NCBI GenBank assembly: GCA_016870215.1
Contig: VGCD01000008.1
Location: forward strand, 1 to 64,000
DNA length: 64,000 nt
Source of the DNA: Actinomycetota bacterium
GTDB taxonomy: Bacteria > Actinomycetota > Acidimicrobiia > Acidimicrobiales > Ilumatobacteraceae
Direction: 5' to 3'
The translations under genes and the position numbers were made by a program. Within the stretch, counting starts at the first letter, position 1; every line of letters starts with the position of its first letter. A model generated the notes under the pieces. The model was given only the letters and a program-made list of their open reading frames with translations. It was not told the origin of the DNA and did not search any database. Shown here in pieces: positions 1 to 48,288 of the stretch.

Positions 1-479
1 CCGAATGAACGGTTGTCAAGAAGTCCGCCATATTCACGCGCAAACGGAACACCTTGGGCGACCATCTGGTCGATGATGTTCACGCTCACCTGTGCGAGGC
101 GATGCACGTTGGCTTCGCGGGCACGGAAGTCACCGCCTTTGACGGTGTCGTAGAACAAACGATGCACACTGTCGCCGTCCCCTTGATAATTCTTCGCTGC
201 ATTGATGCCACCTTGAGCAGCAATCGAGTGCGCACGACGCGGTGAGTCGTGGAAGGTGAACGCGTCGACTTGGTAACCAAGCTCTGCGAGTGTCGCTGCT
301 GCTGATGCCCCGGCGAGGCCGGTGCCCACAACGATGACCTTGAACTTGCGCTTGTTATTGGGGTTCACCAGCTTCATGTCGGACTTGTAGGTGTCCCACA
401 TGTCGGCCACCGGTGCATCCGGAATCTTGCTGTCGAGTCGCACTGTGTTTTGTGCGAGCAGTTGCTGGGCGAGGCTCAT
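1..479 (-). CDS. sdhA: Succinate dehydrogenase/fumarate reductase flavoprotein subunit, N-terminal part
   Basis: Catalytic FAD subunit of succinate:quinone oxidoreductase (TCA cycle, complex II). The 159 visible codons run from ATG at 479 off the left edge, so the C-terminal part is outside the window. The sequence shows a Rossmann FAD loop (GTGLAGAS, about residues 47-54), then [20 protein letters not shown], where the His is the expected covalent FAD attachment site, then a GGDFRARE segment. The Ala-Ala-Gln-Gly-Gly-Ile-Asn context is typical of flavoproteins that pair with a single cytochrome b subunit, and such a subunit is encoded immediately upstream (sdhC). The iron-sulfur subunit presumably lies beyond the edge. 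Confidence 0.93.
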
Positions 480-499
480 GACTATCTCCGTCCGTCGTC

Positions 500-1282
500 T
501 CAGTAGGTCGCTTTTTCGAGAATTCCAGCCATGACTGCGACTGGGAACGTGACGTTCCCGATCACAACGATGGCCGCGAAACCTGTTGCGAATGCATTGC
601 GCCACTTGTTGAAGCGCGGGTTGTTCCAGCCAAGAGACTGGAAGATGCTCCATGCTCCGTGAAACAAGTGAATTCCGAGCAACACGTTGGCGACGATGTA
701 GAACACCGCGACAACAGGTCGCTCGAATGAATAGATGACTGCGTTGTAGACATCCTTCAAACGCTCGTCACCCTCCATGTAGAACGCGTTCGTCTGTGAA
801 TTCACCACACCAAATGTGAGGTCGAGCAGATGCCACACGATGAAGGCCAACACGATGACACCGCTCCAACGCATCGTGCGGCTGGCGAAGTTCGCGATTT
901 GGTAGTCACGAGCGCTCTGGTATTTCACCGGACGTGCCGTGCGGTTCATCACTGTCAGTGAATAGGCGGCGTGCAAGTGCAAGATGAGCATGCCAATGAG
1001 TCCTGCGCGAAGAATCCAGAGAACTGTCTTTTCCGGAGCGAGTGGGTAGAGCAACTTCTCGAGAAAGTGCGCGTAGTGGTTGAGGTCAGATGCCCCTAGG
1101 AACATCTTCAGGTTTCCGATCATGTGAAACAGAACAAAACCCATCATCGCGATGCCAGTGATGGCCATGACGTACTTCTTGCCGACCGCAGTCGAATACA
1201 GATCGAGGAGGAACGGCCGACGTGGCTTGGCCTTTGCGGTTCCCGTGACTGGTCCCCGCCGGCTTGCAATGACCTGTGCCAT
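500..1282 (-). CDS. sdhC: Succinate dehydrogenase cytochrome b subunit (single-anchor type)
   Basis: Membrane anchor of succinate:quinone oxidoreductase, 260 residues. About five hydrophobic helices are visible, with His residues in FHMIGN, LHLHAAY, VWHLLDL and HLFHGAW. These fit bis-heme ligation in the one-subunit (type B) anchor family. The ATG at 1282 is preceded by a strong GGAG/AAGGAG ribosome-binding site about 8 bases upstream. sdhA follows 20 bases after the stop, so the two form an sdhCA operon. The heme assignment is family knowledge; the histidines are seen directly. Confidence 0.92.
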
Positions 1283-39897: not shown

Positions 39898-41318
39898 TGA
39901 GGGCCACACATTTCAGCCAGCACATGGGCGATTTCGCCGACGACGTCGCGTGCAATGGTGCCTTCGGTCGAGCACAACGAGGCTGCAACGCCGTGCACCA
40001 CCGCAGCCGCAGTGGCTGCCGGAGCTGCATCCATGCCACGCGACAAGAACGCCGCGATGATTCCGGACAACACATCGCCACTACCAGCCGTCGCCAGGCG
40101 CTGGTCACCTGAAGCAACAAGAAATGTGGGCCCGTCCGGAGACGTCACGATGGTGGTGGGACCCTTACGAAGAACGACACACCCGGTGCGCTCAGCAAGC
40201 TGACGAGTTGCTGAGATTTTGTCAACTGCGTGGACATCGCCACCGAGAGATGCGAACTCACCGTCGTGCGGTGTGAGCACCGTTGGGGCAGTGCGTGTCG
40301 TGATACTGGAGGAATCACCATGGGCGTCAACGACCGCAGCCAAACCATCCCCATCGACCACCACCGGAATCGACACGGAGCGCACGACATCGCGCACCAA
40401 CTCTGAGACGTCGTCACCACGACCAAGACCTGGCCCAATGACGAGGGCTGCAAAACGATGCGCATCGGCTGCCACTTGCGCTCCCCAATGAACTGATGTT
40501 AAGTGACGCTGCACCACTTCAGTAGGTAGAGCATTTGAACTCTCAAATGATGAATCGCGCATCGACACATGCACGATGCCCGCACCGGCGCGCATCGCAG
40601 CCGCGCAAACAAGTGCGGCGGCTCCAGTCATACCGCCGCATCCGGCGATCACGCGAACAGCGTGAGACCACTTATGCGCATCACGATTGCGTGGCGGAAT
40701 CCACGCAGCAACATCTGTGGGTTCAACCAGATACGTCGCGACATCATCACAATGATCGACGACATCGACACCAATGTCAGCAATTTCGATGTCTCCGCAC
40801 ACTTGCGGCCCGTCGTTCATCAAGTGACCGACTTTCAATGCCGCGAAAGTAATAGTGCGATCCGCGCGCAACACATCGCCAGCACATGTACCGACATCAG
40901 CGTCAAGCCCACTCGGAACATCAACCGCGAGCACAGGCACACCAAACACCAGCGGTGGCTCCCACGTGCCGCGAAACCCAGTGCCGTATGCGGCATCAAT
41001 GACCAGATCAGCGCGTTGCGAGTCGACCACTTCATCTGCTGCTACGTCTGCAGCGATTACTTCGACCGCTGCTCCCCTGTCGGCGAGTCGGCGAGCTGCC
41101 ACCTTCCCGTCAGCCCCATTGCTGCCCTTTCCGGCGATCACCACGACACGCTTCCCATACGCCCCGCTCAACATCCGAAGCGCTGCGAATGCGACTGCAG
41201 CACCTGCTCGCTCGACCAATACAGCGTGACCATGTTGACCATGACCATGTTGATCAAGAACGGCAATCTGCGCCTCGTCGGCACGACGCATTTGGGTGAC
41301 GGTGACGACCGGAATCAC
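39894..41318 (-). CDS. nnrDE: Bifunctional NAD(P)H-hydrate epimerase/dehydratase
   Basis: Repairs hydrated NAD(P)H. It is 474 residues. The N-terminal epimerase (about 1-200) has VIAGKGSNGADGKVAARRL; the C-terminal ADP/ATP-dependent dehydratase (about 220-470) has VIGPGLGRG, VLTPHDGEF and GSGDVLSGIIAAFL. A GHGQHGH run near residue 25 is repetitive but in frame. Coupled to alr downstream. Confidence 0.94.
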   Translation of the reverse strand: MIPVVTVTQMRRADEAQIAVLDQHGHGQHGHAVLVERAGAAVAFAALRMLSGAYGKRVVVIAGKGSNGADGKVAARRLADRGAAVEVIAADVAADEVVDSQRADLVIDAAYGTGFRGTWEPPLVFGVPVLAVDVPSGLDADVGTCAGDVLRADRTITFAALKVGHLMNDGPQVCGDIEIADIGVDVVDHCDDVATYLVEPTDVAAWIPPRNRDAHKWSHAVRVIAGCGGMTGAAALVCAAAMRAGAGIVHVSMRDSSFESSNALPTEVVQRHLTSVHWGAQVAADAHRFAALVIGPGLGRGDDVSELVRDVVRSVSIPVVVDGDGLAAVVDAHGDSSSITTRTAPTVLTPHDGEFASLGGDVHAVDKISATRQLAERTGCVVLRKGPTTIVTSPDGPTFLVASGDQRLATAGSGDVLSGIIAAFLSRGMDAAPAATAAAVVHGVAASLCSTEGTIARDVVGEIAHVLAEMCGPQ

Positions 41319-41354
41319 CCTTCAAAGCGTACGGAGGAACTGAGCAGAAGGCTC

Positions 41355-41720
41355 TTAGAGAGCAGCCACAACCGCAACTGCGACCGAATCGGTATGGCTG
41401 ATGGACACCATCCAACTCGACACTCCCGCTTGGCGTGCGAGTTCTTCCGCACGGCCTTCGACATGCAGCACCGGTGCACCAGATTCGGCTCGGTCGAGCC
41501 ACACGTCATGGAAGCCGAATGCACCAAGACCCACGCCGAGCGCCTTCATGGTCGCTTCGCGTACAGCAAATCGCGCAGCAAGTGATCGTGGATCATCGGC
41601 GCGTTCCTCGAGCTTTGCCAACTCAGCAGAAGTGAACAAACGCTCGCGCATGCCAGGGCGTCTATCCAATAACGAACGGAATCGTTCGACATCGACGGCA
41701 TCAATACCGATACCACGCAT
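41355..41720 (-). CDS. acpS: Holo-[acyl-carrier-protein] synthase
   Basis: Transfers phosphopantetheine from CoA to acyl carrier protein, 121 residues. GIGIDAVDVERF near the N-terminus and FAVREATMKALG (normally ...KEA..KAL) give the metal-binding Asp and Glu. ATG 41720 begins six bases after the glmS stop; a TTG at 41729 would overlap that stop. The start is therefore not certain. Confidence 0.92.
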   Translation of the reverse strand: MRGIGIDAVDVERFRSLLDRRPGMRERLFTSAELAKLEERADDPRSLAARFAVREATMKALGVGLGAFGFHDVWLDRAESGAPVLHVEGRAEELARQAGVSSWMVSISHTDSVAVAVVAAL

Positions 41721-41725
41721 GGTGG

Positions 41726-44700
41726 TCAATTCGTGCGCCAGTGATCCGCGGTTTCGGATACCGGCAAGATGAGCAAGTCGGCAATCGAAATCTCGGCAAG
41801 TCGATCGTCGCGGAACGAGCCCTCCGTCTCTGTCACCCAGTCGACCAGTCGGTCATAGCGTCGGTCGTAACCCTGCAACACGTTCTTCACTGCAGTTGAA
41901 GTCAACTTGTCATGGAACGACACATGCAACAACGTGAGTCCGGTTGTCTGTGAGCCCTTTATCTCCGGAACGAGAATGACGGTACGACCGTCACTTCGCC
42001 CACGAGCCACCAACACTTCTTGTTCGCTCGCAACACGTCGCTTAGTGCCCACAAGAGAGTTGCTCGCGTCAACTCGCGACTTCAACTCACGAGCAAGACC
42101 ACCTCGATCAACAATCGAGATACTCGCAGAACCAGCAGCGACATCGCCTTCAATGCGATACCGCGTGTAGCCATTCACTGCAGTCACCGCACCGTCTAGT
42201 GCCGCGAGAACTTTCATGGTGCCGTATGACAAACGGTCTCGTGACGCACCTGCATCAATGACGGCGCGAACAAGTGCGCGGTCGAGCAGACCCTCTTCAC
42301 TCCGTGAGATACCAACAGTGATGGTCTTGGCTTGGTGTTTGATGGCATCGACAGGACGAGTCAGTTCGTCGATACCACGTGTCAGCGCAGAAATGAGATC
42401 GTCGAGGAGCACTTCAGGTGATGCGACACGACCTGTGTCGCGTTGGTACGACTCAAGTGGCGACGATGCAGTCACTGTTCGCAACAACGACACAATGCGC
42501 ACTGCAGTTGAAGCCTCAAGGTTGCCGTCATACTGACCGGTCTGCAGTGCATTCTGAAATGCCTGCATTGGAGCACCGATTGCGTCATGCACCCGGGCAA
42601 GTGCATCATCGGCTTGCGCCCCACGCTCAACGACATGCTCGATTGCTTCACGAGCCTCGCGAAGTGGTCGGGCAAGTGCATCAATGGCAAGAGCTGCTTC
42701 GTAACCAAACAAATGCCCCGCCATGGCGGACAGTACAAATGCCAAACTCGACTCAACGACCGGTACAGAAATGACGGCGCTCGCACTATCGAACCGGGAC
42801 TCGCCCTCAGAAGCCACCACTATTGGTAGTGCCTTGTGAGCCCTATAAATAGCCACTTCTTTGGCAACATCAGTGGCAGTGCCGTCAGCAAGACCTGCAG
42901 CGCACACAAGAATCATCGGCTCACAGGACAAGTCGATGTGTTTCTTGTCTTCGGTTACGTCGCACGAGATCGACTTGTAACAGAGCTCGGACAACTTGAT
43001 ACGTACCTCGTGCGCTGCAACCGTGTTCGGGCCGTTACCCACCACCGCCCAATATCGACGAGACGGTGCGAAGCGATGTGCCGCATCGGCGATGGCGGGT
43101 CGCAGGGCGATGACTCTTTCCATTGCGGCTGGCATGTCGCGAAGTGACCGCACGACACGGTCGGTGACTTCGCGGTTCACTCGTCCGGATGCTTCTGCAA
43201 TCGCGCACGACAACAACGCGCCAGCAGCCACCTGGGCATAGAACGCTTTCGTACTTGCCACACTCATCTCGACATCGCGCCCGTCGGAGGTGTAGAGAAC
43301 ACCATGGGCTTTGTTGGCCAATTCAGAACCGCGACGATTCACGATGGCAATAACCGATGCCCCACGATTCTTCAACAGATCAACGGTGCGATTGGTATCT
43401 GTCGTAGTACCACTCTGGCTGACCGCCACCACCAACATGTCGGACATGTCAGTGCGCATGTCAAAGCCGGACAATTCAGTTGCCGTCAGCGCGTCGACGT
43501 GAATGCGACTATCTGACACGGCAGACAGCACAGCAACCATCGAAGTGCCGGCTACTGCAGCTGTACCTTGGCCAATCACCCGAATACGCGTAATTGTGCC
43601 GTTCGCCAACTTCTGTCGGATGTCGTCGGGAAGACTTTCCACCGGAAGATCCGCATGAAAACCACCGTCACGCTCGATGATTCGACCGCGCAACGTCTTT
43701 CTGAAACTCCGCGGTGCTTCGAGTATTTCTTTGAGAAGAAAGTGCGGTGAATCTCCACGATCGATGTCACGTGTCGTGACTTCTGCGGTGATGACAGAGT
43801 CAGTAGCAATCGCAAGTGCCGTGCCGTCGTAGGCGGACATTGAAAGACCATCGATGCTGCCGGCACCATCAGCATCAAGCACCATGATCTGACCACGGCT
43901 TGCAGGTTGATCGGCATGCGCAAGTGCCTCCCCGTCCATACGCACGTACTGCAATGTCTCTTCGACCACCCCATAGGGCTCACTGGCCACGATGTAGCGA
44001 TCTTCCGCAAGACCAATACACAGACCCTGACCGCTTCCGTGAAGCGCAAGCAACATCTTGTGAGGGTGATCGGCGCTGACTAGACCAATCGCCACAGACC
44101 CCTCGAACGACGACACGGTCTTTCGAAACGCTTCAGTCAGTTCATTCTCCGCGCGGAACCTCTGCACGAGAGCCGGAATGACCTTTGCATCTGTCGTGAT
44201 GGGATCAGCGATCTTCAATGAATGGCGAACCTTGAGATCTGCATGATTGTCAACGTCGCCGTTCAACACTCCGATAGCAATGGTTGCTGCAGCCTCACCA
44301 TCTTCTTCACTGGTGACGGGGTGGGCATTCGGTTCAGAGATAATGCCGACACTTGCCCACCGTGTGTGTCCGAGAACGGTGGTTCGCACACCAGGCAATG
44401 ACAGAGCACGACGCAGCAATTCATCGTCCATGATTGATGAACGCATCTTGCGAGTGTTGTCACCTAATTCACCGATTTCAGCTGCCGCTTTGTAGACGAA
44501 CACCAATGAACGCCCTTGAGCACGGACGCTGTTGTTGGTGAACAGCGGGTCGCCACTTCGCTCGCGCAGCATCGATGCGAACGGTTCCTGTGCAGGGTCG
44601 AGAGCTTCGCCCCACACGATGACGCCAACTCCGGCAGAGTCGCGTCCACGTACTTCCAAACGATCGAGCGCAGAAAGCGCCTGTTGGATGCTGTAGTAAC

Positions 44701-45118
44701 CACACAACGCCGACGAAGATGCATGACGACCAGCAAGTGCTTGCACTGCATCGGCGGTACGAAGTCGATCACGGCGAATCGACCAGAGCGGGTCTCGCAC
44801 CGCAGCCACCAAGGCGGCTTCCGCCTCGATATACGCGGGGTTGCCGGTGAGCGAGTCAACACGTTGATCTTCTTCAACTGCGTATGCGTCGAGTGCGTCG
44901 AGCCGTGAGGTCATCGCAGCGACAAGCTCGAGGTTGCCCGCCATCGCTTGCATTCCTGCATCGCCGCGCAACAATTCGTCGACTCGCTGCAAGTGCTGGG
45001 CAACCAATGCATTGTCGCCGCGAGCTGCGATGGCCGAATCGAGGCCGTTCAACACCTCTTCACGACTGGGTATTGCACGACCCGTCGGGCGGGACACGAT
45101 TCCGATGATGCCGCACAT
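41726..45118 (-). CDS. glmS: Oversized glutamine:fructose-6-phosphate aminotransferase
   Basis: Makes glucosamine-6-phosphate for cell-wall synthesis. It is 1130 residues, nearly twice the usual ~610. MCGIIGIV has the Cys2 nucleophile; RGRDSAG (157-163), HTRWA (251), NAHP (264) and the NG of VLNGDVDN are the glutaminase landmarks. SQSGTTTDTN (568) and VASTKAF (620) are SIS-domain motifs. K708, E711 and H727 match E. coli K485, E488 and H504 with exact spacing, and KTITVG (931) matches the C-terminal Lys. About 135 residues are inserted after residue 9, about 100 before KTITVG, and about 190 follow it. Confidence 0.9.
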   Translation of the reverse strand: MCGIIGIVSRPTGRAIPSREEVLNGLDSAIAARGDNALVAQHLQRVDELLRGDAGMQAMAGNLELVAAMTSRLDALDAYAVEEDQRVDSLTGNPAYIEAEAALVAAVRDPLWSIRRDRLRTADAVQALAGRHASSSALCGYYSIQQALSALDRLEVRGRDSAGVGVIVWGEALDPAQEPFASMLRERSGDPLFTNNSVRAQGRSLVFVYKAAAEIGELGDNTRKMRSSIMDDELLRRALSLPGVRTTVLGHTRWASVGIISEPNAHPVTSEEDGEAAATIAIGVLNGDVDNHADLKVRHSLKIADPITTDAKVIPALVQRFRAENELTEAFRKTVSSFEGSVAIGLVSADHPHKMLLALHGSGQGLCIGLAEDRYIVASEPYGVVEETLQYVRMDGEALAHADQPASRGQIMVLDADGAGSIDGLSMSAYDGTALAIATDSVITAEVTTRDIDRGDSPHFLLKEILEAPRSFRKTLRGRIIERDGGFHADLPVESLPDDIRQKLANGTITRIRVIGQGTAAVAGTSMVAVLSAVSDSRIHVDALTATELSGFDMRTDMSDMLVVAVSQSGTTTDTNRTVDLLKNRGASVIAIVNRRGSELANKAHGVLYTSDGRDVEMSVASTKAFYAQVAAGALLSCAIAEASGRVNREVTDRVVRSLRDMPAAMERVIALRPAIADAAHRFAPSRRYWAVVGNGPNTVAAHEVRIKLSELCYKSISCDVTEDKKHIDLSCEPMILVCAAGLADGTATDVAKEVAIYRAHKALPIVVASEGESRFDSASAVISVPVVESSLAFVLSAMAGHLFGYEAALAIDALARPLREAREAIEHVVERGAQADDALARVHDAIGAPMQAFQNALQTGQYDGNLEASTAVRIVSLLRTVTASSPLESYQRDTGRVASPEVLLDDLISALTRGIDELTRPVDAIKHQAKTITVGISRSEEGLLDRALVRAVIDAGASRDRLSYGTMKVLAALDGAVTAVNGYTRYRIEGDVAAGSASISIVDRGGLARELKSRVDASNSLVGTKRRVASEQEVLVARGRSDGRTVILVPEIKGSQTTGLTLLHVSFHDKLTSTAVKNVLQGYDRRYDRLVDWVTETEGSFRDDRLAEISIADLLILPVSETADHWRTN

Positions 45119-45127
45119 GGTTCGAGA

Positions 45128-46450
45128 TTAGTGAGCCTCGTCGGCCGCACGGACCGCATCGGCGAGACTTCCTGCTACTTCTCGGGCGAGCTCGGCAGTC
45201 TCAGCCTCAACCATGACGCGAATCACAGGTTCGGTACCCGAGGCGCGTAGCAACACCCGCCCGTTACCAGCAAGCAAACGTTCGGCGGTCGCTACTTGTT
45301 CAGCGAGAACGTCAGCCGGATCTGCAATCTTGTTGTTCGTTCGCACATTGACCAACACTTGCGGGTACGAGGTCATCACATCTTTTGACACGTGGGAAAA
45401 ATCAGACTTGGTGCGCTGCAAGTACTCCGCAAGCATGAGGCCAGCGAGTAAGCCGTCGCCCGTGGTGGCGTGTGCCGCGTAAATGATGTGGCCACTCTGT
45501 TCACCACCCAAAACCAAATCGCTGTGCTCAAGTGCTTCGAGAACATGTCGATCGCCAACTGGCGTGACCACTACGTCAATGTCGTGCGATTGCATCGCTC
45601 GATGAAAGCCAAGGTTCGACATGACCGTGACGGCCACAGATTTGTTACGAAGGAGACCGCGCTGTGCCAAGTCGATGGCTGCGAGTGCAATGAGACGATC
45701 ACCATCGACAATGTCTCCTGTGGCAGTCACGCCGATGACTCGGTCGCCATCGCCGTCAAAGCTGAGGCCAAGCCCTGCGTGTGCATTCGCCATGTGTGCT
45801 GCCAGGGCTTCCGGATGAGTGGCTCCACAACGGTCGTTGATGTTGGTGCCATCGGGCCCAGCGTTGATGACGTCGACGGCGGCACCAGTGCGGGAGAAAA
45901 CCTTTGCTGCCACTTCTGACATTGCACCGTTGGCACAATCAAGCGCGACCGTGACCCCAGACAGGCGACCCTCACCGATAATCGACACGCGATGGTCGAT
46001 GTACTCATCAAGCAGTTCGGTCGCAGAGTGCACCATCGCCTCGGGAATGCCCTGCTCAGCAGTGCTCACTGCGTGCCATTCACGTTCGATGTCAACCTGT
46101 TGTGCATCGGACAACTTGGCTCCACCAGCAGCAAACACTTTGATGCCGTTGTCTTTCCAGGGGTTGTGCGATGCGGTGATGGACACGCCCACCCAGTCGT
46201 GCGTTTCTGCGATGAAAGCGATTGCAGGTGTCGGCGCCACACCAAGTAGGTGAACCTCTACGCCTTCAGCAGTGATTCCTTGCACAAGTGCAGACTGAAG
46301 TGACGGACCGCTCTGACGTGTGTCGCGACCAACGACGACCGCAGTAGGAGAAAGCACGCGTGCGATTGCACGACCGAGATCGCGGACCGATTCGACGGAC
46401 AAATCCTCGAACGCCGTGCCACGAACACCATCTGTTCCGAAGTGAAGCAT
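45128..46450 (-). CDS. glmM: Phosphoglucosamine mutase
   Basis: Converts GlcN-6-P to GlcN-1-P, the step after GlmS. 440 residues from ATG 46450 (MLHFGTDGVRG); the longer GTG at 46480 lacks family support. Active-site Ser in TASHNPWKDNGIKVF, metal loop SFDGDGDR, sugar loop GGEQSGHII and phosphate-binding LLRASGTEPVIRVMVEA. It forms a pathway pair with the glmS gene 10 bases downstream. Confidence 0.96.
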   Translation of the reverse strand: MLHFGTDGVRGTAFEDLSVESVRDLGRAIARVLSPTAVVVGRDTRQSGPSLQSALVQGITAEGVEVHLLGVAPTPAIAFIAETHDWVGVSITASHNPWKDNGIKVFAAGGAKLSDAQQVDIEREWHAVSTAEQGIPEAMVHSATELLDEYIDHRVSIIGEGRLSGVTVALDCANGAMSEVAAKVFSRTGAAVDVINAGPDGTNINDRCGATHPEALAAHMANAHAGLGLSFDGDGDRVIGVTATGDIVDGDRLIALAAIDLAQRGLLRNKSVAVTVMSNLGFHRAMQSHDIDVVVTPVGDRHVLEALEHSDLVLGGEQSGHIIYAAHATTGDGLLAGLMLAEYLQRTKSDFSHVSKDVMTSYPQVLVNVRTNNKIADPADVLAEQVATAERLLAGNGRVLLRASGTEPVIRVMVEAETAELAREVAGSLADAVRAADEAH

Positions 46451-46497
46451 GACCTTGGGTGTTGAAAGTTGCGCGCACACGGTGCACGCGGCGCGGT

Positions 46498-46893
46498 TCA
46501 GCGCTTGGTGTACTGCGGAGCCTTACGGGCCTTCTTGAGGCCGTACTTCTTGCTCTCTTTGCGACGTGAATCGCGAGTGAGCAGGCCGGCCTTCTTCAGT
46601 GCCGGACGAGTTTCAGGGTCCATCTCGACGAGTGAGCGGGCAATTGCCATGCGCAACGCACCGGCTTGGCCGTTTACTCCGCCGCCGTAGATGTTTGCAT
46701 CGACATCGAAAGTTGTTTCGTTGTTCGTGACACGCAGTGCCTCGATGGCGACCATGCGTTGCGTTGGCGTGGTGAAGTACGCCTCGATTGCTCGACCGTT
46801 GACGGTGACCTTGCCAGTTCCGGTGCGCACGTTTGCGCGTGCGACGGCTTCCTTACGGCGACCTGTTGTCTGTGTGAGCGGTGCAGTTGCCAC
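46498..46893 (-). CDS. rpsI: 30S ribosomal protein S9
   Basis: 131 residues. Ends PQYTKR with the basic C-terminal tail that reaches the P-site tRNA (SRRKESKKYGLKKARKAPQYTKR). GRRKEAVARANVRTGTGKVTVNG at the N-terminus is typical. It follows rplM in the standard pair. Confidence 0.98.
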   Translation of the reverse strand: MATAPLTQTTGRRKEAVARANVRTGTGKVTVNGRAIEAYFTTPTQRMVAIEALRVTNNETTFDVDANIYGGGVNGQAGALRMAIARSLVEMDPETRPALKKAGLLTRDSRRKESKKYGLKKARKAPQYTKR

Positions 46894-46913
46894 GAATGAC
46901 TCCTTGAATTTGT

Positions 46914-47360
46914 TCAGCGCGCCTTGGCAGCGCTGACGTCGAACGGAACGGGATTTTGTGGTGCGTGCGGATGCGTTGCTCCTGCGTACACCTTGAGCTT
47001 CTTCACCATCTGGCGACCGAGTGGGCCTTTCGGCAACATGCCTGCGATGGAACGACGAATTGCATCGTCGGGCTTGCGTGCCAACAATTCGGCATACGAC
47101 TCGCTCTTCAAACCACCGGGGTATCCGGAGTACGTGTAGATCATGCTCTTCTCGGCCTTGTTCGACGTCATGACGACCTTCGAGGCGTTGATGATGATGA
47201 CGTGATCACCGGTGTCGATGTGAGGAGCAAAGATCGGCTTGTGCTTGCCGCGGAGCAGACGGGCGGCTTCGGTACAGATGCGACCAAGCACCATGCCCTC
47301 GGCGTCGATGACGTGCCAAGTGCGTGTGATGTCGCTCGGAGTTGGTGTGTAAGTGGCCAT
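46914..47360 (-). CDS. rplM: 50S ribosomal protein L13
   Basis: 148 residues from ATG 47360. WHVIDAEGMVLGRICTEAARLLRGKHKPIFAPH and the C-terminal MLPKGPLGRQMVKKLKVYAG are the family core. AAGGAAG lies 5 bases upstream of the ATG. It is paired with rpsI as in most bacteria. Confidence 0.98.
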   Translation of the reverse strand: MATYTPTPSDITRTWHVIDAEGMVLGRICTEAARLLRGKHKPIFAPHIDTGDHVIIINASKVVMTSNKAEKSMIYTYSGYPGGLKSESYAELLARKPDDAIRRSIAGMLPKGPLGRQMVKKLKVYAGATHPHAPQNPVPFDVSAAKAR

Positions 47361-47421
47361 GGAACTTCCTTGACGACGGCGGACGACCCGCCGGCTGACC
47401 GGTTTGCACCGGAACCTCGAA

Positions 47422-47451
47422 AGGATACGGGCAGGGTTGGCCGGCCTACAA
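47422..47451 (-). promoter_or_regulatory. Predicted promoter of rplM-rpsI
   Basis: -35 TTGTAG (47451-47446), 18-base spacer, -10 TATCCT (47427-47422). The same -10 and spacer length as the groESL promoter. Composition and spacing only. Confidence 0.4.
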
Positions 47452-47480
47452 CCGCCCCCGCCTGAAATCGGGTCTATTCC

Positions 47481-47501
47481 GCAGGGCAGCGGGTGCCCTG
47501 C
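47481..47501 (-). terminator. Hairpin after truA, possible terminator
   Basis: A perfect 8-bp stem GCAGGGCA / TGCCCTGC with a 5-base GCGGG loop, 10 bases past the truA stop on the minus strand. No clear T-run follows, so it may be a weak terminator or pause site separating truA from the rplM promoter. Confidence 0.35.
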
Positions 47502-47511
47502 CCCCACCTCG

Positions 47512-48288
47512 TCAGTAGCCGACTTCCACAAGGCAGAGCCCGTGCGGCGGAGCCAAGGGGGCGTTCAGCGTGCGGTCTTTGGCCAGCATGATGCGGCGCA
47601 TATCGCTCGGTAGGTGCTTGCCCTGACCAATATCGACCATGAGGCCGACAATCGACCGCACCATCTGATGGCAAAACGCATTTGCCTTTATATGAAAGGT
47701 GAGCACATCGTCGTGTTGCTCCCACTTCGCCTGCATGACATACCGGCCCATCGAGGCCGGTTGCTGCCCAACTTCGGTCGGCGGGCGCTTGCAAAACGAC
47801 GTGAAGTCGTGTTCACCAATGATTGCATCGCATGCAAGACGCATGGCGTGCACACGCAATGGTTCTCGTATGTGCCATGCGGTGTTCAACAGGAATGGAT
47901 CAGGCGTGGGTGCATTCAACACGGTGTATTCGTAGCGCCTCCATTTGGCGCTGAAGCGGGCATGAAAATCTTCGTCAGCCCAAGCGATGTCGCGCACGAC
48001 GATGTGCGGCGCACACAGTGCGTTCACGCTTCGTTGCACTTGTGTGAGATCAGCGTCTGCTGGCACATCAGCGCTCACCACTTGCGCACGTGCATGTACT
48101 CCGGCATCAGTACGGCCTGCTCCGACTATGGCAACAGGTGTGCGCACCACCGTTGACAACGCTTCGTTCAGCCGCCCCGCGACAGTGTCGACTCCGTCGT
48201 TGGCAGCAAAACCTCGAAACGGTGTGCCGTCGTAGGCCACATGCAAACGGACCCGCGCAAGCGCGGGTCCGTCAGTAGATGTCGTCAT
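47512..48288 (-). CDS. truA: tRNA pseudouridine synthase A
   Basis: Forms pseudouridine at positions 38-40 of tRNA anticodon arms, 258 residues. Catalytic Asp in VGAGRTDAGVHARAQVV and NAFCHQMVRSIVGLM near the C-terminus. It follows rplQ by 32 bases, the common actinobacterial order rplQ-truA-rplM-rpsI. Confidence 0.97.
   Translation of the reverse strand: MTTSTDGPALARVRLHVAYDGTPFRGFAANDGVDTVAGRLNEALSTVVRTPVAIVGAGRTDAGVHARAQVVSADVPADADLTQVQRSVNALCAPHIVVRDIAWADEDFHARFSAKWRRYEYTVLNAPTPDPFLLNTAWHIREPLRVHAMRLACDAIIGEHDFTSFCKRPPTEVGQQPASMGRYVMQAKWEQHDDVLTFHIKANAFCHQMVRSIVGLMVDIGQGKHLPSDMRRIMLAKDRTLNAPLAPPHGLCLVEVGY

Follow-up and report, generated by a model that had tools for sequence, protein, structure and literature searches.

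The question raised by this locus is whether a glucosamine-6-phosphate synthase (GlmS) of almost double the usual size, in which the catalytic C-tail lies inside the chain, can be a working enzyme, and what its added regions may contribute. The gene is located on the minus strand at 41726..45118 of a 64,000-nucleotide stretch (hereafter the window) of contig VGCD01000008.1 from an actinobacterium of the family Ilumatobacteraceae, class Acidimicrobiia (assembly GCA_016870215.1), where it forms an uninterrupted open reading frame of 1130 residues with an ATG start. A first reading made from the letters alone (the sequence-only reading) had pointed to this unusual size and to glmM as the gene directly upstream, and both observations are borne out, the latter by a gap of 9 bases and a TIGR01455 match. 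As judged from its sequence, the large protein most likely works as a glucosamine-6-phosphate synthase, and a coupling of its catalytic lid to a domain for metabolite sensing or scaffolding is the most likely reading of its layout. The more specific proposal, namely that it is the sole GlmS found in its genome, that it belongs to a large-form subfamily replacing the standard GlmS, and that its lid is tuned by a PAS/GAF-like sensing domain, is one that we favour with moderate confidence.

The assignment of the protein to GlmS is well supported. Pfam detects GATase_6 at residues 246-380 and SIS at 511-636 (the second SIS domain is left unmarked), among solved structures the sequence is closest to those of E. 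coli GlmS and human GFAT, and a structural match to 2v4m_D (Z 42.5, 342 residues over 456-814) shows that the isomerase half comprises two SIS domains. To map individual residues, 35 large sequences were aligned to E. coli GlmS (P0002). The E. coli positions C1, R73, W74, H86, N98, G99 and D123, as well as S347, Q348, S349, T352, E481, K485, E488, H504 and K603, were identical in 35/35 sequences, and we take C1, R73, W74, N98, G99 and D123 to be the N-terminal nucleophile cysteine and residues of the glutamine site. PMC9272926 names Cys1, Glu488, His504 and Lys603 as catalytic residues of GlmS. K708, E711 and H727 of the window protein align with K485, E488 and H504, confirming the spacing that had been recognized from the letters, and K931 of the KTITVG motif aligns with K603. 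The earlier statement that both half-reactions look intact holds for the catalytic residues, which are invariant, and requires qualification at four E. coli positions, T76, H77, S303 and E351, which are S, V or I, A and T in 35/35 large sequences; A at S303 is also present in some standard GlmS.

Our chief reason for regarding the large protein as the functional GlmS lies in its mutual exclusion with the standard form and in the slot that both share. Within its own genome (2.0 Mb, 91.8% complete) a protein search with the large GlmS retrieved only itself, and no second GlmS was found at this degree of completeness; a second, weaker match to TIGR01135 (model positions 1-221) lies in a 503-residue frame which, judging by the extent of the match, we take to be PurF. 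Across the class, 198 Acidimicrobiia genomes were surveyed with a standard GlmS defined as a match above the TIGR01135 cut-off, a search that found GlmS in 14/14 well-known control genomes. The large form was present in 81 of these genomes and the standard form in 104, while none had both and 13 had neither. One of the latter (G192) carries a fragment of standard GlmS, 245 positions long, at the end of a contig, and some of the 81 large-form genomes carry the gene in pieces or partially (e.g. G158, G162). The separation is also seen at the level of families, since the large form occurs in 26 and the standard form in 19, and no family has both. The sequence-only reading had regarded the large protein as an oddity of its genome, unless the same form proved to be common among related actinobacteria. 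What we found is largely a lineage trait, present in 15/15 same-family genomes examined (window genome included) and in 81/198 genomes of the class, though the large form is not common throughout the actinobacteria: it was detected in 9/269 other genomes of the phylum that were searched. Of 534 related stretches, the 80 best belong by record title mostly to Acidimicrobiia (Ilumatobacteraceae, Microthrixaceae, Candidatus Microthrix, Aquihabitans), and relatives labelled Bifidobacterium breve, Acidobacteria or Thermoanaerobacterales are probably mislabelled bins.

The two forms of GlmS are found in a common genetic setting. Either glmM or acpS, or the two together, adjoin 110/115 large loci and 18/20 standard loci, and both genes adjoin 90/115 and 11/20 of these loci, respectively; flank lengths differ in these counts, and the two sets of large loci may overlap in genomes. 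This shared setting indicates that the large form occupies the place of GlmS in the operon, which together with the mutual exclusion of the two forms argues for a functional GlmS. The earlier claim of a functional enzyme is in this way supported by the catalytic residues, by the lack of another GlmS among the matches in the window genome, and by the operon slot, as far as sequence can tell. Most likely, a large part of the Acidimicrobiia has the large subfamily in place of the standard GlmS. A comparable exchange may have occurred in family f82 of another class, where 5/5 g182/g263 genomes, which are five of the nine carriers outside the class and of which two reach a completeness of only 81% and 64%, have the large form without a standard GlmS and the g208 genome has the standard form. 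Two f82 loci (L032, L035) show no glmM or acpS match within their 1.5-kb flanks, and the neighbours at a third (L161, in G350) match peptidase M24 and RtcB rather than glmM or acpS. The large form without a standard GlmS, in combination with these different neighbours, suggests horizontal transfer with replacement. Both forms are present in G237, a genome from outside the class with a 6.5-Mb assembly at 5% contamination.

The lengths of the added regions relative to E. coli GlmS were derived by hand from the alignments. They amount to ~130 residues at 10-146, ~107 at 812-921 and ~194 after KTITVG. All three regions had been recognized in the sequence-only reading, which missed two smaller expansions, one that separates RDSAG from HTRWA (~50 residues, around 171-205) and one of ~40 residues scattered over 251-811. 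Modelling of the large GlmS with AlphaFold2 (AF2; 63 sequences) gave a mean predicted local distance difference test score (pLDDT) of 87.9 and a predicted template modelling score (pTM) of 0.81, and the top matches of the model in Foldseek and VIA-align are GFAT/GlmS structures (6zmj, E 6.9e-28; Z about 42). The N-terminal insert (residues 10-146; 44681..45091, on the minus strand like all segments that follow) enters the glutaminase domain after MCGIIGIVS and is modelled as long helices, with a mean column identity of 51% and 6/137 invariant positions. The remaining glutaminase domain with the linker (residues 147-450; 43769..44680), which was delimited by GATase_6, the residue mapping and a match to 1xff (Z 29.5), holds RDSAG, HTRWA, NAHP, NGD and TTDAK plus the additional loop at ~171-205. 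The isomerase half (residues 451-811; 42686..43768), identified by the SIS match of Pfam and by 2v4m_D, holds SQSGTT, VASTKAF, E704/K708/E711 and H727 and has a mean column identity of 76%. Preceding the C-tail is a second insert that is helical in the AF2 model (residues 812-921; 42356..42685; mean column identity 63%).

The catalytic C-tail with K931 (residues 922-940; 42299..42355) is internal in the large form. It was assigned from conservation, pLDDT and a structural alignment to 1mos (449..939 versus 242..608) that takes in the GlmS C-tail. With a mean column identity of 96% and 14/19 invariant positions it is the most conserved of ten stretches compared, and residues 923-940 are the sole segment of the AF2 model with a pLDDT below 50, a combination that fits a mobile lid. 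The part behind the tail (residues 941-1130; 41729..42298) is assigned to a C-terminal PAS/GAF-like domain plus helices, on the basis of an AF2 model of this part alone and its match to residues 171-360 of 7jsr. A structure model and a search with the extra regions had been called for in the sequence-only reading. The model portrays both inserts as helical and the C-terminal part as a separate domain, and the search returned no convincing Pfam family, with no match for residues 1-273 alone at E 5 and only Alpha-mann_mid (E 0.0089) for residues 806-1130 alone. Given this model, the regulation or partner binding that had been suggested for the extra regions is plausible.

When folded alone, residues 941-1130 reached a pLDDT of 95.4 and a pTM of 0.91, and were predicted to form a five-stranded sheet with flanking helices and extra C-terminal helices. 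The best match in the PDB is 7jsr, L-GDH180 of Mycobacterium smegmatis, a glutamate dehydrogenase of 180 kDa (Foldseek E 5.3e-4, prob 1.00, TMq 0.44; VIA against 7jsr_A, Z 8.9, root-mean-square deviation (rmsd) 4.6, 163 residues aligned, model 7..190 onto chain 171..360). Among the matches listed, 7jsr alone covers nearly all of the domain; GAF, PAS and CACHE domains match with Z 5.8-7.3 over 75-105 residues, about half of it. Most of the matches listed are, judged by title, PAS, GAF or CACHE domains. On the strength of the model, a PAS/GAF-like fold is likely. A Roadblock/LC7 topology, which had been suspected from the order of helices and strands, was rejected since the fold search gave PAS/GAF-like domains, the missing match alone not being decisive.

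In a homologue of the dehydrogenase (L203), with numbering carried over from 7jsr, the matching region is located between the Pfam domains GDH_ACT1 (58-186) and GDH_ACT2 (429 on) and includes part of GDH_HM1 (366-424). PMC8175468 describes a PAS-type domain, proposed as a metabolic sensor, in the N-terminal segment of the large dehydrogenase. Comparison of the domain with dehydrogenase profiles by hhalign yielded scores of 22.0 (0/200 shuffles as good) and 23.3 (8/200), and of 19.5 with a broader dehydrogenase profile (13/300), all three at the same place. A hidden Markov model (HMM) of the dehydrogenase region, searched against 63 large GlmS sequences and decoys, had a best E of 0.0083 (best decoy 0.38); among the 40 matches listed, 27 were at the same place (these being kin and not independent), 8 were decoys and 5 were elsewhere. 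Shared ancestry of residues 941-1130 with the PAS module of the dehydrogenase is possible. A PDB profile search with the domain gave no match to 7jsr (best E 0.24), and GDH_HM1 (PF21073) is absent from the 11 Pfam families that were matched by any of the 63 members at E 0.5, of which DUF7124 had the best E (0.0018, in 5 members). No other carriers of the domain were found in 119 genomes of the class (with at most 28 candidates scored per genome), except for two weak matches (E 0.004 and 0.07). The large glutamate dehydrogenase itself (PF05088) had no match in the window genome (G000) or in its congener G091, and it scored above the cut-off in five further genomes from the same family (G002, G019, G027, G043, G051).

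In known GlmS and GFAT enzymes, the C-tail is the free end of the chain and the chief mobile element between the two halves. What is novel here is the layout, in which the catalytic C-tail is internal, with a helical insert before it and a PAS/GAF-like domain behind it. We propose that glutamine would be hydrolysed at Cys2 and that the ammonia would move to the SIS half, where fructose-6-phosphate would be aminated and isomerised with the participation of E711, H727 and K931, a chemistry that we infer from the conserved residues and the fold. A metabolite or state sensed by the PAS/GAF-like domain may shift the position or the dimer contacts of this domain. Since the lid is tethered by the helical insert and the PAS-like domain, a change in the domain could pull or release it, and the lid being opened or restrained in this manner would tune the flux into UDP-N-acetylglucosamine (UDP-GlcNAc). 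Catalysis is read here from residues, sensing from the fold and coupling from topology, and the idea that a doubly tethered lid and a PAS-type sensor, possibly kin to the dehydrogenase sensor, provide direct allosteric control is put forward tentatively.

Several findings weigh against this proposal. The matches of the NCBIfam GlmS models, over residues 146-811 and 246-811, are well below the curated cut-offs (TIGR01135, 240.6 of 418.05 bits; NF001484, 263.6 of 381). The replacements of T76 by S, of H77 by V or I and of E351 by T are fixed in 35/35 large sequences. Partial standard copies are possible in large-form genomes, where GlmS matches below the cut-off were surveyed among the matches listed. 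As regards the sensing domain, the match to 7jsr is modest (Foldseek TM 0.44, rmsd 7.9), 7jsr is a 6.27 Å structure, and the VIA Z of 8.9 is to be read against a typical best Z of 7 to 8 when there is no clear match. The shuffle tests, ranging by profile from 0/200 over 8/200 to 13/300, give weak sequence support; the reverse HMM search of the domain against dehydrogenases had a best E of 0.15 at another than the expected place; and no PAS, GAF or GDH family is among the Pfam matches of the 63 members at E 0.5. Moreover, PAS-like folds may have a purely structural role.

It is this structural reading that competes most strongly with a sensing domain. The protein would then be a working GlmS whose added regions lend stability to the dimer, cover the lid or offer a docking site to a partner, e.g. 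GlmM, without sensing a small molecule, and we rate this as a possibility to be taken seriously, short of being probable. It agrees with the fact that many PAS-like folds act as dimer contacts, with the helical nature of the N-terminal insert and of residues 812-921 and their lower conservation (51% and 63%) compared to the isomerase half (76%), and with the adjoining glmM and acpS genes in most loci. However, 17/130 positions in residues 941-1070 are invariant, several of them charged (R960, R986, R1015, K1026, D1043, R1045), which seems to be beyond the needs of a spacer, and in f82 (L032, L035, L161) the gene is found away from glmM and acpS.

The divergence of the core bears on a second alternative. 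In a tree of 72 rows and 600 core columns, obtained with a quick method, the 35 large sequences form one clade with a support of 100 in the Shimodaira-Hasegawa-like approximate likelihood ratio test (SH-aLRT); the stem of this clade measures 8.4 changes per column, and its attachment point is unreliable. Core sequences are on average 67% identical among large forms, 55% among standard forms and 30% between the two groups, and the mean core identity to E. coli GlmS is 45% for standard and 27% for large sequences. In contrast to this long stem, the branch of the neighbouring GlmM between the two carrier groups is ordinary (0.49; 42 of 55 loci), which suggests that it was GlmS that was remodelled and that the lineage as a whole did not evolve faster. 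Such a stem and the 30% core identity to standard GlmS, like the changes at T76, H77, S303 and E351 and the scores under the GlmS cut-offs, might reflect a core that has diverged to another aminosugar reaction, with another sugar-phosphate acceptor or as a deaminase, glucosamine-6-phosphate being made otherwise. We consider this improbable because no other GlmS was found in the window genome, no large-form genome of the class has a standard GlmS above the cut-off, and the gene directly follows glmM; furthermore, the three catalytic residues of the isomerase and the cysteine are invariant, and S347, Q348, S349 and T352 of the phosphate loop are retained.

The GlmU protein of the window genome (L210:1483-2583; G000:C10:45808-46869) has 366 residues and matches TIGR01173 only to position 344 of 452, and as far as can be judged from its sequence the end of the acetyltransferase domain is missing. 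Within the order of the window genome, 1/44 GlmU matches passes the cut-off (that of G149, itself 2-344), and elsewhere in the class 128/134 pass, whichever form of GlmS is present. The short GlmU might suggest that the extra regions of the large GlmS provide a second pathway activity, for instance the glucosamine acetyltransferase step that GlmU seemingly lacks. This is very improbable, because G047, a genome of the same order with a standard GlmS, has a GlmU that matches just 2-336, the large-form genomes G020 and G072 (families f27 and f28) carry a full-length GlmU, and no acetyltransferase is among the 50 matches listed in either fold search of residues 941-1130. An acetyltransferase role of the extra regions was rejected for these reasons, the short GlmU tracking the order and not the form of GlmS.

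An artefact of sequencing, assembly or gene fusion, as might be suspected from drafts that hold the gene in pieces at contig ends and from two frames in G149, is hardly conceivable, since relatives over nearly the full length with 46-74% identity in many genomes, including the single-contig G002, G027, G157, G003, G110 and G190 and Aquihabitans sp. G128 (L101), whose genome is complete, show that the large GlmS is due neither to chance nor to assembly. In G149 (two contigs; L163, G149:C1:1179743-1183031) the large glmS is split into two overlapping frames that correspond to query residues 39-732 and 713-1130, which we attribute to a frameshift or sequencing error.

The genes next to the large glmS are on the same strand. 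The upstream glmM gene for phosphoglucosamine mutase (45128..46480, minus) has a TIGR01455 score of 448.6 bits, barely above the cut-off of 447.55, and it is the stop of this gene that is followed after the 9 bases by the start of glmS. The next gene downstream, acpS for holo-ACP synthase (41355..41729, minus; NF000832, 111.1 bits versus a cut-off of 107), has an earliest possible start that overlaps the glmS stop. Farther downstream, nnr is backed by a family match, and from their translations we take the other downstream genes to be alr, tsaE, tsaB, rimI and tsaD, and the upstream genes to be rpsI, rplM, truA, rplQ and rpoA. The G+C content is even across the window (0.53 to 0.59), no tRNA genes were found in it, and no Rfam match at the gathering score indicated an RNA element upstream of glmS in the region 40000-48000.

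GlmS is the entry to the amino sugars of the cell wall and a drug target, and the mobility of its C-tail is central to the mechanism. A natural form with a folded domain behind the C-tail represents a natural experiment on the working and the regulation of the lid and, if our proposal is true, the regulation of amino-sugar synthesis would be carried within the enzyme itself. Since its member in the window scores below the cut-offs of the NCBIfam GlmS models, the subfamily may go under a wrong name in these bacteria. The large form constitutes an unusual, testable layout around the catalytic tail in much of one class. In the open-licence PMC literature we found no description of the large GlmS subfamily, and nothing that joins Acidimicrobiia with glucosamine-6-phosphate synthase or GlmS with a PAS domain. 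For extensions or insertions of GlmS there was a review of GFAT; going by titles and the beginnings of abstracts, none of the papers listed on actinobacterial GlmS architecture dealt with this form; those on Ilumatobacter and glmS were by title all ecological; and none of those listed on the GlmU acetyltransferase mentioned Acidimicrobiia. In PMC8041777, N- or C-terminal tagging of GFAT is reported to disturb catalysis.

Compared to E. coli GlmS and human GFAT-1 (1jxa, 2j6h, 6r4e), the large form has the Ntn glutaminase, the two SIS domains, the catalytic residues and the C-tail with its KTVTV-like motif in common, and the standard GlmS of the class likewise adjoins glmM in 17/20 loci. The known enzymes end at the C-tail after about 610 residues, whereas the large form continues for 194 residues after KTITVG; relative to E. 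coli GlmS it has ~520 residues more, a core that is 27% identical, and the replacements T76S, H77V, S303A and E351T. The PAS region of L-GDH180 from M. smegmatis (7jsr), which lies between ACT1 and helical motif 1, has a fold like that of residues 947-1130, with a weak collinear likeness in sequence that aligns GYTRYRIEG with LGYREYQI and RLVDWVTETEGSFRDDRL with QLVQIFDSFPKDELF, the second pair having been lengthened by eye from a very weak match. The two systems differ in that this domain is part of a dehydrogenase with ACT domains in one case and of the GlmS C-terminus, without ACT domains, in the other. With the PAS, GAF and CACHE sensor domains, finally, residues 941-1130 share the predicted five-stranded sheet and the flanking helices, to which extra C-terminal helices are added in the large GlmS.

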